Shown piece after piece: positions 51,432 to 60,227 of a stretch of DNA of 64,000 nucleotides (positions are counted from its first letter, which is position 1; every line of letters starts with the position of its first letter). This stretch comes from an uncultured Brachyspira sp. (lineage in GTDB: Bacteria > Spirochaetota > Brachyspiria > Brachyspirales > Brachyspiraceae). The stretch spans positions 1 through 64,000 of the forward strand of contig NZ_CALXKQ010000010.1 in NCBI RefSeq assembly GCF_944388875.1. Direction: 5' to 3'. The translations under genes and the position numbers were made by a program. The notes below the pieces were generated by a model. That model was not told the origin of the DNA. It did no database searches and saw only the letters and a program-made list of their open reading frames with translations.

Positions 51432-52337
51432 ATGGGAAAATCTATTAAGGGTGTTTTAAGCAGAAAGAATGTTTCATTAAAAAAGTATAATACATTCAGA
51501 GTTAATGCCAAGGCTTTGGAATTTTATATACCAGAAACTATTAACGGCTTTATAGATTTGATTAAATATTTAAATGATAATAATAAAAGATATATCATCT
51601 TAGGAGGCGGAAGCAATACATTATTTTTAGATAAAGTAATAAAGTTTCCTATTATTTATACAGGTTTCTTCAGCAGAATAGAGCATACATCTCATAATAT
51701 TTTAGCATATTCTGGAGCTGATGTTATTGATGTTGTAAAATATGCTTATAAAAATGCTTTTACAGGATTAGAGTTTTTATACGGACTCCCTGGAAGCATA
51801 GGAGGAGCAGCTTATATGAATGCAAGATGCTATGAACATTCGGTATCTGAATTCATAGACAGTGTTGGAATAATAGATGATAACATAGAATATATGCATA
51901 TTGGTATTGATGAGTGCAAATACGCTTATAAAAAAAGTATTTTTCAAGATAAAAAATATATTATATTGGATGTAAGATTTAAATTAAATAAAGGTTCTAA
52001 AAAATTGATTAAGCCAGAAATGAATAAATATTTAAAAGACAGAAAAACTAAGAATCAATTTAAATACCCTTCAGCAGGAAGTACATTTTTAAATGATTAC
52101 GAAACAAATATGATAGCTGGAAAAGTTATAGACTCTGTCAATATGAAAGGAGTTAAATTAGGAGGTGCTATGGTTTCACCTTATCATGCCAATTTTATAG
52201 TTAATTATAATAATGCTTCAGGAAAAGATATACTAAATCTTATGAGAAAAGTAAGAGAAGAAGTTTATAATCAAAAAGGTATTCTTTTGAATGCTGAAGT
52301 TAGAATAGTATCAAATGATGAAAATGAAAAATTATAA
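51432..52337 (+). CDS. murB: UDP-N-acetylenolpyruvoylglucosamine reductase
   Basis: 301 residues. Reduces UDP-GlcNAc-enolpyruvate to UDP-MurNAc with FAD and NADPH. LKKYNTFRVNAKA, YIILGGGSNTLFLD (FAD loop), LEFLYGLPGSIGGAAYMNARCY and YPSAGSTF (catalytic Ser) are type II MurB landmarks. ATG 51432 is chosen because AGGA lies nine bases upstream; an in-frame TTG two codons earlier would be too close. A hairpin starts directly after the stop. Confidence 0.93.
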   Translation: MGKSIKGVLSRKNVSLKKYNTFRVNAKALEFYIPETINGFIDLIKYLNDNNKRYIILGGGSNTLFLDKVIKFPIIYTGFFSRIEHTSHNILAYSGADVIDVVKYAYKNAFTGLEFLYGLPGSIGGAAYMNARCYEHSVSEFIDSVGIIDDNIEYMHIGIDECKYAYKKSIFQDKKYIILDVRFKLNKGSKKLIKPEMNKYLKDRKTKNQFKYPSAGSTFLNDYETNMIAGKVIDSVNMKGVKLGGAMVSPYHANFIVNYNNASGKDILNLMRKVREEVYNQKGILLNAEVRIVSNDENEKL

Positions 52338-52363
52338 CCTCTATGTATAACAACACATAGAGG
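52338..52363. terminator. Hairpin after murB
   Basis: CCTCTATGT (52338-52346) pairs with ACATAGAGG (52355-52363). Sits between convergent murB and tenA. Confidence 0.65.
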
Positions 52364-52393
52364 CGTATTTAATCAATTTATTTAAAATTATTT

Positions 52394-53056
52394 TTATACA
52401 TTATAAAAATCATCTAAATTATAAGCGTCATTCCAAAATCTGTACTCCCAAACAAAAGCTATGTCAAAAGAAATTATCATTTTTTCTTTAACATAATTGG
52501 AAGCATTATTATACAAATCATCAATAATTTTAATCATATTTTCTGTTGATTTTGAAAACTCTTCATCAGCATAAGCATCAATCCAGTTTTTGTATGGATT
52601 ATTTTCTATTTTTGCATTTTCTTTTATGTGTTTACCTACTTCATTATATATCCAAAAGCATGGAAGTATTGAAGAAGCAGCTGCCTCAAAAGATTCTGTG
52701 TGAACTGTATTAATTAAAAAACTTGTATAACCTAGGTTTGAAGTTGTAATTTTATTTGTATTTTTTAATTTAAAAGTATCTCTAAAATATTTATGTACAA
52801 TTTCCTCTTCTACTATATATGCATTCATAGATGATTTTAAAAAAGCCATAGCATAGTCTGCATTATTATTTATTTTTGAAGATATCGTGGCTAATACTTT
52901 AGAATAGTATTTTAAATATATGCTGTCCTGTTCTATATAATAGGCAAATTTTTCTTTATCCAAAGAGCCTTCCATAAGCTCTTTGTTAAATGGCATATTA
53001 ATTATTTTTTTATATAGCCCTTCATTTTTTTTCCAAACCATTTCCGAAAATTTCAT
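52394..53056 (-). CDS. tenA: TenA family aminopyrimidine aminohydrolase/thiaminase II
   Basis: 220 residues, normal length. FAYYIEQDSIYL, AASSILPCFWIYNEVG (catalytic Cys) and FVWEYRFWNDAY (Glu and Tyr of the active site) are TenA signatures. It hydrolyses aminopyrimidine from degraded thiamine for salvage. GAGGAG precedes the ATG. It lies 40 bases after the OppA-type gene, downstream of a TPP riboswitch, so thiamine status should control it. Confidence 0.92.
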   Translation of the reverse strand: MKFSEMVWKKNEGLYKKIINMPFNKELMEGSLDKEKFAYYIEQDSIYLKYYSKVLATISSKINNNADYAMAFLKSSMNAYIVEEEIVHKYFRDTFKLKNTNKITTSNLGYTSFLINTVHTESFEAAASSILPCFWIYNEVGKHIKENAKIENNPYKNWIDAYADEEFSKSTENMIKIIDDLYNNASNYVKEKMIISFDIAFVWEYRFWNDAYNLDDFYNV

Positions 53057-53096
53057 TTTATTCTCCTCTTGTTATAAATTATTAAATTTTTAAATA

Positions 53097-54704
53097 TTAT
53101 TTTTCTATATATGCATAGTTAAACTTATATCTTCCCAAAGGCTCATCAATATAATTTTTTAATTTAGGGTTTACTACCAAAAAGTCAGTCCTGTATATAA
53201 AAGGTATAATAGGCACTTCTTCAAAAAGTATAGATTCTGCTTCTTTCAATGCCTCCATTCGTTTATTTGCATTTGTGGCAGTAATGGCAAAATCTATTAA
53301 ATAATCATACCTTTCATTAGAAAAGCCTCCGTAATTTATATCGCTATCACTTATCATAATTTGAAGCATAGTAAGTGGATCATTATAATCACCTGTCCAG
53401 CTAGTTCTAGCCATTTGATAATTTCCAGATTCTCTAAAAGGAAGAGTGATTTTTGATTCTTCTGTTCTCACAGCTGTTTCTATATTAAGTGCTTCTTTCC
53501 ACATTTGCTGTACTGCTTCCATAACAGTAGTATAAAACCCTGATGATACTTTTAGCTCTAATATAGGGAAGTTTTCTCCATTTGGATATCCTGCTTCAGC
53601 TAATAATCTTCTTGCCTCTTCAACATTTTGATTATAATTATTGGCTATAATATAGTTGCTGCTTTCTTCTCTGAATGATTTTTCAAGTCCTTTCACTGCT
53701 GGAGGAACAAATGCTTCTGCTGCTATTAGTTTTCCATATCCTATATTCGATACTATATAGTTTCTATCTATTGCTAGTGATAATGCTTTTCTTACTCTTT
53801 TATCAGATAGTGTTTTATCTTTAGTATTTAAGTCTATATAATAAGTGCCTATAATATCGCTTACTGCCATTAGATTTTCTTTTATAAGGTTTTCTATCTC
53901 TCCAATAGGCGGAGCATTTATAGAGAAGTCAACATCTCCTGTTCTTACAGCATTAAGTGAAATATATTCATCGGCTATCAAAACAAAATTAATTTTTTTA
54001 GCTACCTGATTTGTATAATTCCAATAATTAGTATTAATTTCAAAAACTAGAATCTCGTCTGGTTTTCTTTTTGTCATTCTATAAGCACCGTTACCTATAT
54101 AAGTATCAGGATTCCAAGTCCAATCGTCGCCATATTTTTCTATTATATCTTTTCTCACAGGCATATACACGCCTCCTGATGCAAGTAAATCAATAAAATA
54201 TATTGTAGGCTTTTCAAGTTCTATTACCAACGTATTTTCATTTATTGCTTTAACTCCTAGATTTTCTACACTTTGTTTGCCTCTTATTATGTCTTTGGCA
54301 TTTTTTATATATTCCATTAAATAGCTCAATGGGGAAGCTGTTTTAGGATCAACCGCCCTTCTATAAGAATATACAAAATCATCAGCCGTTACTTTTTTAC
54401 CATCGCTCCATTTTGCATTATCCCTTAAATAAAATGTATAAGTCAGTTTATCATCACTTATATCCCATTTTTCAGCAACTCCTTCTACAATATTGCCGTT
54501 TATATCTTTATTAAGAAGTCCCTCAAATGCATGATTGATATAAATATATCCATAGGTTTCATAATTCAATGCTGGGTCTATAGTTTTTAGTTCATAGCCC
54601 AAATTTACAGTGATCTCATCTTTGATATTTTTCGTTTGTTTTTTACAAGATATGAACGATACAAATAAAAATAATATAATAATAAATTTTTGTATTGAAG
54701 TCAT
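53097..54704 (-). CDS. Peptide/nickel-type (SBP family 5, OppA-like) binding lipoprotein under TPP control
   Basis: 535 residues. The signal peptide ends FISC. Family 5 binding protein features: NLGYELKTIDPALNYET, YINHAFEGLLNKD, EGVAEKWDISDDKLTYTFYLRDNAKWSDG, VTADDFVYSYRRAVDP and VRKALSLAIDR. AAGGAG precedes the ATG. Members usually deliver oligopeptides to ABC permeases, but a TPP riboswitch in the leader and tenA downstream argue that this one captures a thiamine-related compound, or a peptide relevant to thiamine supply. No permease or ATPase genes are adjacent, so it would borrow a transporter encoded elsewhere. Confidence 0.9.
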   Translation of the reverse strand: MTSIQKFIIILFLFVSFISCKKQTKNIKDEITVNLGYELKTIDPALNYETYGYIYINHAFEGLLNKDINGNIVEGVAEKWDISDDKLTYTFYLRDNAKWSDGKKVTADDFVYSYRRAVDPKTASPLSYLMEYIKNAKDIIRGKQSVENLGVKAINENTLVIELEKPTIYFIDLLASGGVYMPVRKDIIEKYGDDWTWNPDTYIGNGAYRMTKRKPDEILVFEINTNYWNYTNQVAKKINFVLIADEYISLNAVRTGDVDFSINAPPIGEIENLIKENLMAVSDIIGTYYIDLNTKDKTLSDKRVRKALSLAIDRNYIVSNIGYGKLIAAEAFVPPAVKGLEKSFREESSNYIIANNYNQNVEEARRLLAEAGYPNGENFPILELKVSSGFYTTVMEAVQQMWKEALNIETAVRTEESKITLPFRESGNYQMARTSWTGDYNDPLTMLQIMISDSDINYGGFSNERYDYLIDFAITATNANKRMEALKEAESILFEEVPIIPFIYRTDFLVVNPKLKNYIDEPLGRYKFNYAYIEK

Positions 54705-54847
54705 AAAAAGCTCCTTATATTAACAAATAGAGATTTTTATAACGCCGTTTGTTTTGTCTTGCTTGATATTTTTTAATAAAACAAGACCAACTTTAGAAAA
54801 GGTCTCATTTTATTAATAATTTTAGAAAAGTAAAAAAATAATAAAAG

Positions 54848-54955
54848 AGATAATTCCCTACGCTGGCATTACCCAAACAGGTTATAAGGGTCGAAGTTTA
54901 TAATAGCTAAAATTATGTAAACTTCCTCTCAGCCTTTTCAAGCTCCCCGATTTAT
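54848..54955 (-). promoter_or_regulatory. TPP riboswitch (THI element)
   Basis: On the minus strand the aptamer reads GGGGAGCTTGAAAAGG, CTGAGAGGAAG, then ACCCTTATAACCTGTTTGG and GTAATGCCAGCGTAGGGAA. These are the conserved P1/P2 start, the pyrimidine-sensing CUGAGA loop, and the ACCUG/AAUGCCAGCGUAGGGA side. It lies about 145 bases before the ATG of the OppA-type gene. The expression platform is unclear: a long stem at about 54774-54816 has no T tail on this strand, and a T-rich stretch directly follows the aptamer. Confidence 0.93.
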
Positions 54956-54986
54956 GCTGAAAATGATACAGCATTTTTATTTTTTT
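54954..54986 (+). terminator. Hairpin with T tail upstream of the riboswitch
   Basis: ATGCTG (54954-54959) pairs with CAGCAT (54969-54974), followed by TTTTATTTTTTTA on the plus strand. It may stop plus-strand readthrough, or extend the riboswitch leader structure on the other strand. Confidence 0.45.
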
Positions 54987-55016
54987 ATCAATACTTATAT
55001 ATAACAATTTATAAAA

Positions 55017-55736: not shown

Positions 55737-57212
55737 ATGTTATTTAATTCCACAGAGTTTATGATATTTTTTCCAATAACATTAATTTTATACTGGATAT
55801 TTCCAAAAAAGTACAGATATATTTGTTTATTTATAGCAAGTTATACATTTTATATGTTTTGGAATCCTAAATATGCTCTTCTTATGGGTACTTCTACTAT
55901 AGTAACTTTTTTAAGCGGTGTATTAATAGAGAAATTAAAATATAAAAGAACTGTTGTAGCATTTAGTTTTATTATCAACTTAGCAATTCTAATATTCTTC
56001 AAATATTTTGATTTTCTGCTTCAGAATATAAATATAGTTTTGTCAGCAGTAAATATACAATTAATAAATAAGCCTTTTGATATAATACTTCCAGTAGGAA
56101 TATCTTTTTATACTTTTCAGGCATTAAGTTATACTATAGATGTTTACAGAGGTGAGATAAAACCTGAAAAAAATATTATTAAGTATGCATTGTTCGTATC
56201 ATTCTTTCCACAGTTAGTTGCTGGACCTATAGAGCGTTCTAAAAATTTGCTTATTCAAATGGAGAATTTAGAAAAAATAAAAAGATTTGATTATGACAGA
56301 ATAACTGAAGGGCTAACCTTAATACTTTTCGGTTATTTTCAGAAAATGGTAATAGCAGACAGAGCAGCAATATTAGTAGATACTGTTTTTAATGGCTATT
56401 ATGAATACAACAGTATGGCTTTAATTTTGGCAGCAGTATTTTTTGCTATACAAATATACTGCGATTTTGGAAGCTACTCACTTATAGCAATAGGGACAGC
56501 TAAAGTTATGGGCATTAATTTGATGGAGAATTTTAATACCCCGTATTTTTCTAGAAGTATAAAGGAGTTCTGGGGCAGATGGCATATATCATTATCTACT
56601 TGGTTTAGAGATTACCTTTATATACCTTTAGGCGGAAATAGATGTTCAAATATAAGAAAGAGTTTTAATATATTAGTAACATTTCTAGTAAGCGGTTTAT
56701 GGCATGGAGCTAATTTTACCTTCATAGCTTGGGGAGCTATTCATGGTATATTTCACATAATAGAAGAACAGTTAAAACATATAAAAGAAAAATATTTAAA
56801 TAGATTCAAAATAAAAACAAATGCTTTCAGTTTTGCCTTAATAGAAATAATAATTACTTTTATCATAGTAGATTTAGCTTGGATATTTTTCAGGGCGGAA
56901 ACTATACATGATGCCATACATTATATAAAAAGAATATTTACAAGAATAGATTTATGGACATTGTTTGACGGTACTTTATATAGTTTAGGATTAGATATTT
57001 TTGAGATGAACATTTTAATCATAGCGTTATTCATACTGATATCTTTTGATTTAATAAATTATATAAGAAAAGAAAGCATATTTGTATTTCTAAGTAAACA
57101 GAATCTATATTTCAGATGGTTTGTTATGTTATTTTTGATTTTTTACATAATTGTTTACGGTAAGTACGGAGCAGGCTTTGACCCTAAACAGTTTATATAT
57201 TTCCAATTTTAA
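55737..57212 (+). CDS. MBOAT family membrane O-acyltransferase 1 (AlgI/DltB-like)
   Basis: 491 residues, about ten membrane helices. It would carry acyl groups across the inner membrane onto an extracytoplasmic glycan. Signatures: FNSTEFMIFFPITLILYWIFPKK, ILPVGISFYTFQALSYTIDVYRG, VAGPIERSKN, EFWGRWHISLSTWFRDYLYIPLGGN and GLWHGANFTFIAWG with the catalytic His at residue 323. GGGAG precedes the ATG. An SGNH-type partner follows 15 bases later, the usual AlgI/AlgJ or DltB/DltD layout. The (AAACC)8 tract just upstream suggests phase-variable expression. A second copy lies at 58752. Confidence 0.9.
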   Translation: MLFNSTEFMIFFPITLILYWIFPKKYRYICLFIASYTFYMFWNPKYALLMGTSTIVTFLSGVLIEKLKYKRTVVAFSFIINLAILIFFKYFDFLLQNINIVLSAVNIQLINKPFDIILPVGISFYTFQALSYTIDVYRGEIKPEKNIIKYALFVSFFPQLVAGPIERSKNLLIQMENLEKIKRFDYDRITEGLTLILFGYFQKMVIADRAAILVDTVFNGYYEYNSMALILAAVFFAIQIYCDFGSYSLIAIGTAKVMGINLMENFNTPYFSRSIKEFWGRWHISLSTWFRDYLYIPLGGNRCSNIRKSFNILVTFLVSGLWHGANFTFIAWGAIHGIFHIIEEQLKHIKEKYLNRFKIKTNAFSFALIEIIITFIIVDLAWIFFRAETIHDAIHYIKRIFTRIDLWTLFDGTLYSLGLDIFEMNILIIALFILISFDLINYIRKESIFVFLSKQNLYFRWFVMLFLIFYIIVYGKYGAGFDPKQFIYFQF

Positions 57213-58751: not shown

Positions 58752-60227
58752 ATGCTGTTTAATTCTACGGATTTTTTAATATTTTTTCCTATAACGCTTA
58801 TATTATATTGGATATTTCCAAAAAAATTAAGATATATATGTCTTTTCATAGCCAGTTATATATTCTATATGTTTTGGAATCCTAAATATGCATTATTAAT
58901 GGGAACTTCTACTGTAGTAACTTTTTTAAGCGGTATATTAATAGAAAAATTAAAATATAAAAGAATAGTTGTAGCTTTCAGCTTTATAATAAATATTGCA
59001 ATACTTGTGTTTTTTAAGTATTTTGACTTTTTGCTATTAAATATAAATATGATTTTATCAGCATTAAATATAAGATTAATAGAAAAGCCTTTTGATGTTA
59101 TTTTACCAGTAGGAATATCATTTTACACTTTTCAGGCATTAAGCTATACTATAGATGTTTACAGAGGAGAAATAAAGTCTGAAAAAAATATTATTAAGTA
59201 TGCATTGTTCGTATCATTTTTTCCTCAGTTAGTGGCAGGTCCGATAGAGCGTTCAAAACATTTACTCGGACAAATTCAGAATATGGATAAAATAAAAAGA
59301 TTCGATTATCAAAGAATAACTGAAGGACTTATTTTAATGCTTTTCGGCTATTTTCAGAAAATGGTAATAGCAGACAGAGCAGCAATACTAGTAGATACTG
59401 TTTTTAATAGATATTATATTTATAACTCAAGCGAATTGTTATTATCAGCATTACTTTTTGCGGTGCAGATATACTGTGATTTTGCAAGCTATTCACTTAT
59501 AGCAATAGGAACGGCTAAAGTTATGGGAATAGATTTAATGGAGAATTTTAATACACCTTATTTTGCTAGAAGCATAAAAGAGTTTTGGGGAAGATGGCAT
59601 ATATCATTATCAACTTGGTTTAGGGATTATCTTTATATACCTTTAGGCGGAAACAGATGCTCAAAATTAAGAAGAAGTTTTAATATATTATTAACATTTC
59701 TAGTAAGCGGACTCTGGCATGGAGCTAATTTTACTTTTATAGCTTGGGGTGCTATTCATGGAATATTTTACTTAATAGAAGATATTACTTCAAAGTTTAG
59801 GAATAATGTTTTAAATAAATTTGGCGTGAAGGTAAAAAGTTTCAGCTTTAAACTTCTTGAAGTAATTATTACATTTATAATAGTAGATTTGGCTTGGATA
59901 TTTTTTAGGGCAGAAACTATACATGACGCTTTTTACTATATAGAGAGAATGTTTACTAAAATAGATTTATGGCGATTGTTTGACGGCTCCTTATACAAAT
60001 TGGGATTAGACAGTTTTGAAATGAATATACTTATAATATCTTTGATAGTGTTATTTTTAGTTGATGTTATTAAGTATATAAAGAAAGAAACTATTTATGA
60101 GTTTTTAAAAAATCAATGTTTGTATTTCAGATGGGCTGTAATATTTTTCTTGTTATTTTTTATAATCATATACGGCAAATACGGTGCAGGCTTTGATCCT
60201 AAGCAGTTTATATATTTTCAGTTTTAG
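58752..60227 (+). CDS. MBOAT family membrane O-acyltransferase 2 (AlgI/DltB-like)
   Basis: 491 residues, same length as the copy at 55737 and nearly identical over most of the chain, including EFWGRWHISLSTWFRDYLYI and GLWHGANFTFIAWG. Differences cluster in the loops around residues 205-225 and in the C-terminal third. No repeat tract precedes it; about 108 AT-rich bases separate it from the first SGNH gene and no clear ribosome site is seen. Tandem duplication of the module followed by divergence of the partner proteins is likely. Confidence 0.9.
   Translation: MLFNSTDFLIFFPITLILYWIFPKKLRYICLFIASYIFYMFWNPKYALLMGTSTVVTFLSGILIEKLKYKRIVVAFSFIINIAILVFFKYFDFLLLNINMILSALNIRLIEKPFDVILPVGISFYTFQALSYTIDVYRGEIKSEKNIIKYALFVSFFPQLVAGPIERSKHLLGQIQNMDKIKRFDYQRITEGLILMLFGYFQKMVIADRAAILVDTVFNRYYIYNSSELLLSALLFAVQIYCDFASYSLIAIGTAKVMGIDLMENFNTPYFARSIKEFWGRWHISLSTWFRDYLYIPLGGNRCSKLRRSFNILLTFLVSGLWHGANFTFIAWGAIHGIFYLIEDITSKFRNNVLNKFGVKVKSFSFKLLEVIITFIIVDLAWIFFRAETIHDAFYYIERMFTKIDLWRLFDGSLYKLGLDSFEMNILIISLIVLFLVDVIKYIKKETIYEFLKNQCLYFRWAVIFFLLFFIIIYGKYGAGFDPKQFIYFQF

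Follow-up and report, generated by a model that had tools for sequence, protein, structure and literature searches.

The locus and its leader RNA

The window (the whole stretch of 64,000 nucleotides from an uncultured Brachyspira sp. that was analyzed here) carries a TPP aptamer, a gene for an OppA-like solute-binding lipoprotein (oppA) and tenA, all on the same strand, with the aptamer first and a spacing of 40 nt between oppA and tenA (Table 1). This order had been proposed in a first-pass annotation of the sequence, and it was borne out by the Rfam and Pfam matches, with coordinates that proved correct to 4 nt or less. The terminator scan returned no site between oppA and tenA, and reported one just 3' of tenA (52364-52337).

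Table 1. Features of the TPP-linked oppA-tenA locus, in positions of the window.
Feature	Position	Strand	Basis or remark
TPP riboswitch aptamer RF00059	54838..54959	minus	Rfam, 57.8 bits
OppA-like solute-binding lipoprotein SBP_bac_5, 535 aa	53097..54704	minus	Pfam; candidate binder of thiamine or a precursor
TenA (thiaminase II / aminopyrimidine aminohydrolase family), 220 aa	52394..53056	minus	Pfam TENA_THI-4
Sigma-70-like promoter TTGATA-17-TATCAT, immediately 5' of the aptamer	54963..54991	minus	10/12 matches
Terminator-like hairpin UAAUAAAAUGAGACC..GGUCUUGUUUUAUU, candidate expression platform	54775..54815	minus	folding and leader conservation
Conserved leader segment ACGGCGUUAUAAAAAUC (ACGGYGUUAUAAAAAUC over the genus), 5' of the ribosome site	54732..54748	minus	leader alignment
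Terminator-like hairpin 3' of tenA, common to the convergent murB	52337..52364	minus	terminator scan

The binding protein matched Pfam PF00496 (SBP_bac_5) with 289.9 bits over positions 2-366 of the 368 in the profile, this being its sole Pfam match, to the exclusion of the ThiB and ThiY/NMT1 families, and a lipobox-like FISC motif ends at residue 20. Under the NCBIfam OppA equivalog NF011684, it scored 340.2 bits against a cut-off of 947. The TenA-family protein matched PF03070 (TENA_THI-4) with 100.5 bits and, at 119.7 bits, fell below the cut-off of 130 of the NCBIfam equivalog TIGR04306, while the alignment with Bacillus subtilis TenA (1to9) indicated that D44, Y47, the LPC cysteine and the WEY glutamate have been retained, D44, C135 and E205 being what we take to be the catalytic residues of TenA. 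Elsewhere in the window, on the plus strand, two near-alike 491-aa membrane-bound O-acyltransferase-like proteins are encoded in tandem (55737-57212 and 58752-60227), the first of these genes being followed by one for a 471-aa secreted or membrane-anchored protein, an arrangement that would be a duplicated acylation unit.

Rfam identified a single TPP aptamer in the window, scoring 57.8 bits (E=1e-8) where the gathering score is 54.3. A chance match is excluded, given that the aptamer core (CUGAGA ... ACCCUUAUAACCUG ... GCGUAGGGA) is identical across 15 aligned Brachyspira leaders, in which the ligand-binding segments CUGAGA and ACCUG..GUAGGGA are invariant, and that all 12 of the orthologue loci scanned exceed the gathering score for RF00059. 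The predicted riboswitch would bind TPP and switch expression. The promoter-like TTGATA-17-TATCAT, a kind of match that is frequent in AT-rich DNA, is retained in most of the aligned leaders of the genus.

Downstream of the aptamer, a 14-bp leader hairpin (54815-54775) with the tail UUUUAUU folds at -13.5 kcal/mol (z -5.3), and its stem is retained in nearly all of the aligned leaders, having been lost in G009 (locus L216). Given this retention of a terminator-like hairpin, control by transcription termination in the leader is likely. The search for an antiterminator by duplex folding returned no consistent pairing partner for the hairpin. Two further elements of the leader were also recorded, that is, UUUUCUAAAGUUG in the hairpin loop (54788-54800, minus strand), which is conserved over the genus even in G009, where the stem has been lost, and AAUAAAACAAGAC, which is found downstream in many species and is complementary to the 3' arm of the hairpin.

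Conservation of the riboswitch-oppA pair

The aptamer lies directly 5' of the TPP-linked oppA in all 21 of the Brachyspira loci read, a count in which L038 was assigned by sequence pattern, and which excludes the loci of G058, G072, G088, G108 and G132. The orthologues are 72-95% identical to the window protein, and all of them come from genomes of the genus Brachyspira. The position of tenA is less constant, given that it adjoins oppA in 13 of the 20 loci with a long enough contig, and not in the other seven (L029, L031, L033, L034, L215, L216 and L252), so the initial proposal that the riboswitch controls the binding protein together with TenA stands for this genome and fails for the genus as a whole. 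In G009, tenA is found on a separate contig with no TPP element; a single such element was found in the genome, and it precedes oppA. The tenA locus of G058 also lacks a TPP element, and in G034, tenA is degenerate, with one TAG and one TAA inside it, and the TPP-oppA pair is intact. No tenA was found in G088 or in G147, the latter being an incomplete draft. Because the TPP element stays with oppA when tenA is elsewhere or degenerate, the target of the riboswitch is the binding protein, and not just tenA, which agrees with the first-pass annotation in placing the binding protein itself under riboswitch control.

Since tenA is sited away from oppA in G009 (where it has a gcpE-like neighbor), in G058 and in the pilosicoli-like genomes (L033, L252), the oppA-tenA neighborhood was formed or broken within the genus, perhaps on more than one occasion. 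Beside the degenerate tenA of G034 there is also a TPP-led thi cluster (L214, G034:C1:1404500-1411100), in which thiM, thiE and thiD share only 37-47% identity with their counterparts in the genome of the window, and the salvage genes of G034 have apparently been replaced.

A TPP element is present in 135 of the 198 Spirochaetota genomes (Brachyspira included). Sixty TPP-downstream regions were sampled across this phylum and compared with reference proteins, and none of those outside Brachyspira had a family 5 binding protein behind the element. The targets in the other spirochaetes were thi enzymes, tenA, or transporters of different kinds, which were judged by look to be ThiB-like, ECF-like or NMT1-like. 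For example, the sister genus represented by G043 has a TPP-controlled NMT1/THI5-type binding protein (174.8 bits) with its own permease and ATPase. In the converse comparison, which was directed at other phyla, the 64 non-Brachyspira family 5 loci closest to the query were scanned with the TPP covariance model, which recovers 8/8 controls and replaced a strict text pattern that misses known elements. A single TPP element was found, and it was rejected as a further case of the pairing, given that it precedes thiBPQ-like genes and not the family 5 gene.

The TPP-linked OppAs group together as a single clade (SH-aLRT 100) in the maximum-likelihood tree, with a long stem and slow change within it, and the closest kin of the clade (L005 and L007) are 51-52% identical. 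Because this clade is nested among Brachyspira paralogues, it is, on the evidence of the tree, an old paralogue of the genus and not an import.

Binding pocket, permease and thiamine genes

The best solved relatives of the window protein are all peptide-binding OppA or MppA proteins (1b05 at 285.8 bits), and the equivalents of Asp419, Arg413, Trp416 and Arg404 (Salmonella OppA numbering) are invariant in 21/21 orthologues. In OppA, these residues dock the amine and the backbone of the peptide (PMC6305025, PMC9967938, PMC5736914). The list of OppA contacts used here was drawn in part from docking papers. Other positions in the pocket differ from those of Salmonella OppA, with Tyr109 being replaced by Leu, Ile or Met, Gly415 by Ser, His371 by Tyr, His161 by Gly, Tyr269 by Ile, Asn247 by Ala, Trp397 by Ser, and Lys307 by Gly, where Trp397 and Lys307 are presumably pocket positions of OppA. 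The residue at Tyr109 is aromatic in 17/18 paralogues, as is that at Trp397 in 16/18, and both are replaced in all of the orthologues. The clade-specific invariant residues are over-represented at the published OppA contact sites (6/17, in comparison with 25/234 invariant sites; Fisher p=0.010), examples being Ser in place of Gly415 and Gly in place of His161.

As several other OppA paralogues of the genome deviate equally strongly from the pocket consensus, the pocket points to a specificity of its own, and not to thiamine. The ligand is likely to have a positively charged amine, which could be that of a peptide N-terminus or that of the aminopyrimidine in HMP or thiamine. A peptide-like ligand is possible, given that the OppA residues that dock the peptide N-terminus have all been kept.

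The first-pass annotation had also supposed that the permease is encoded elsewhere, and a complete oppBCDF operon was found alone on C1, with no oppA (L133 4676-8616, G000:C1), as well as a second OppBC-like pair on C11 with no ATPase nearby. Intact OppA paralogues number about 15 in this genome, which also has fragments of two more, and Rfam found no riboswitch at the remaining paralogues. Given that the one complete oppBCDF lacks an oppA while some 15 OppAs are orphans, it is likely, by analogy, that the orphan binding proteins share this OppBCDF permease. In the Opp system of Borrelia, several lipoprotein OppAs are served by a few permeases and a single pair of ATPases (PMC5736914).

The genome has thiD, thiE, thiM and thiL, all above their curated cut-offs, and one copy of tenA. 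ThiC had no match in the genome, nor did TPK_catalytic, a test that does not extend to thiamine kinases of other families. Because thiC is absent, the pyrimidine must be salvaged, and by established thiamine biochemistry the cell would be salvage-only, dependent on HMP pyrimidine from outside and reaching TPP through ThiD, ThiM, ThiE and ThiL. A second TPP element of the genome (L003 6674-9893; G000:C3:206673-209892, minus strand) is followed by genes for a membrane protein of 442 aa with a Gate domain (PF07670), for a PhzF-like protein and for ThiM, a set that differs over the genus (Gate-PhzF-ThiM, Gate-ThiM, or ThiM alone), and the Gate protein is another candidate transporter of thiamine or thiazole. 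There are, in addition, two NMT1-type ABC systems, neither of which is under TPP control. A fused two-domain permease (C1:386-388 kb) was considered as ThiP and rejected, as its neighbors resemble the Pst phosphate system. Three tandem OppA paralogues were also observed 2-7 kb from thiE (L132 3219-10958, G000:C29), two of which have tandem counterparts in L037. A functional link between this thiE and the OppAs was discarded as coincidence, given the convergent orientation, the three intervening genes and the lack of a TPP element.

Interpretation and comparison with known systems

The placing of a TPP-sensing switch on one member of the OppA family suggests that this member was recruited for vitamin B1 or one of its building blocks. 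Computation provided the riboswitch, its genus-wide tie to a single clade of OppAs, the set of salvage genes and the orphan oppBCDF, and we incline, with some reserve, to the reading of the locus as a TPP-repressed salvage operon, in which an OppA-like lipoprotein has taken on a thiamine-related ligand and feeds the general OppBCDF. The chances are about even that the family 5 lipoprotein is a dedicated, riboswitch-controlled binder of thiamine or a precursor that works through a general peptide permease common to the orphan binding proteins.

In the proposed mechanism, when TPP is high, the aptamer would be bound and the leader would probably be terminated at the hairpin at 54815-54775, a mechanism that we infer, as we do the ligand and the partner permease, while low TPP would allow the OppA-like lipoprotein and TenA to be produced. 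The ligand of the lipoprotein would most likely be the pyrimidine moiety, as HMP or as a base-degraded aminopyrimidine, or else thiamine or its phosphates, which would be passed to the general OppBCDF encoded elsewhere. TenA would then release HMP from damaged thiamine or from thiamine, ThiD would convert it to HMP-PP, ThiM would provide the thiazole phosphate, ThiE would couple the two, and ThiL would yield TPP. In G034, with its degenerate TenA, and in G088 and G147, where none was found, damaged thiamine would not be usable through this enzyme, and the guess tilts toward HMP or the thiamine phosphates. Counted against the salvage-operon reading were the invariant peptide-docking residues, which a non-peptide ligand does not obviously need, the equal departure of other OppA paralogues from the pocket consensus, the two NMT1-type ABC systems without TPP control, which could import precursors, and the second TPP element, which already controls another candidate transporter.

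A narrower form of the salvage-operon reading, which we hold to be possible and somewhat doubtful, is that the ligand is a thiamine phosphate (TMP or TPP) or thiamine, and not a pyrimidine precursor, with arginines of the pocket holding the phosphate. Arginines are found at OppA positions 404, 413, 485 and 506 in all of the orthologues, and the presence of ThiL would make imported TMP usable at once, whereas Arg485 also occurs in 7/18 paralogues and Arg506 in 5/18.

On the other hand, the protein may be an ordinary peptide-binding OppA, with the riboswitch just putting another peptide scavenger under TPP control. The reason might be, for example, that a low TPP level is a sign of poor nutrition, or that an amino acid with an indirect role is obtained from peptides. 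This peptide-binding reading is unlikely in our estimation, even with every N-terminal docking residue of OppA kept, the best solved relatives all being peptide-binding OppA or MppA proteins, and about 15 similar paralogues in the genome, given that a single clade of these ~15 is under TPP in every species read, with no riboswitch found by Rfam at the others, and that the aromatic residues at Tyr109 and Trp397, common to most paralogues (17/18 and 16/18), are replaced in all of the orthologues. Finally, that the riboswitch serves tenA alone, with the OppA-like gene inserted between them as a passenger, would fit tenA being the second gene in this genome and TenA being a classic TPP-regulated enzyme, but this was ruled out as highly improbable, given that TPP remains with oppA in the seven loci without an adjacent tenA, that no TPP element accompanies tenA in G009 or G058, and that TPP-oppA is intact in G034, where tenA is degenerate.

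If the salvage-operon reading is true, the family 5 binding proteins join the components of vitamin B1 uptake, and the automatic annotation "oligopeptide-binding protein" masks a vitamin transporter in spirochaetes of the swine, poultry and human gut. One permease would serve a large number of binding proteins under separate regulation, perhaps with a different nutrient for each, and a vitamin uptake route would have been made by re-aiming a peptide-binding protein. The literature search returned no paper linking OppA-type proteins with TPP riboswitches, the single paper that names both being on p37 of Mycoplasma hominis, from another family, with priority being uncertain as subscription literature and regulon databases lay outside the search. 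The premise that family 5 is not among the known thiamine transport components is likewise in line with what was found, as no paper or solved structure among those searched linked this family to thiamine.

Among the known systems, the OppA of Salmonella and Escherichia coli and the BbOppA4 of Borrelia have the same family 5 fold, with full-length alignment and equivalents of Asp419, Arg413 and Trp416, and BbOppA4 is a lipoprotein, like the Brachyspira protein. The latter differs from both in its TPP riboswitch, its tenA neighbor, its lack of an adjacent permease and its altered aromatic pocket. ThiY of ThiXYZ (the NMT1-type HMP/aminopyrimidine ABC system) and ThiB of ThiBPQ (the thiamine ABC system) are likewise TPP-controlled binding proteins, often with tenA, and these types hold the TPP-controlled place in other spirochaetes, although they belong to a family unrelated to that of the Brachyspira protein and bring their own permease and ATPase. 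The p37 of Mycoplasma hominis is a thiamine-binding lipoprotein with a TPP riboswitch, while the OppA described in the same paper is not TPP-linked (PMC4498124), so p37/Cypl resembles the Brachyspira case in having a lipoprotein at a TPP riboswitch and differs from it in protein family. The lipoprotein OppAs of Borrelia share permeases in a similar manner, but they bind peptides, and the account of them in PMC5736914 describes no vitamin riboswitch. The riboswitch, the family 5 binding protein, TenA and thi salvage are each of a known kind, and it is their combination, fixed over a genus, that appears to be new.
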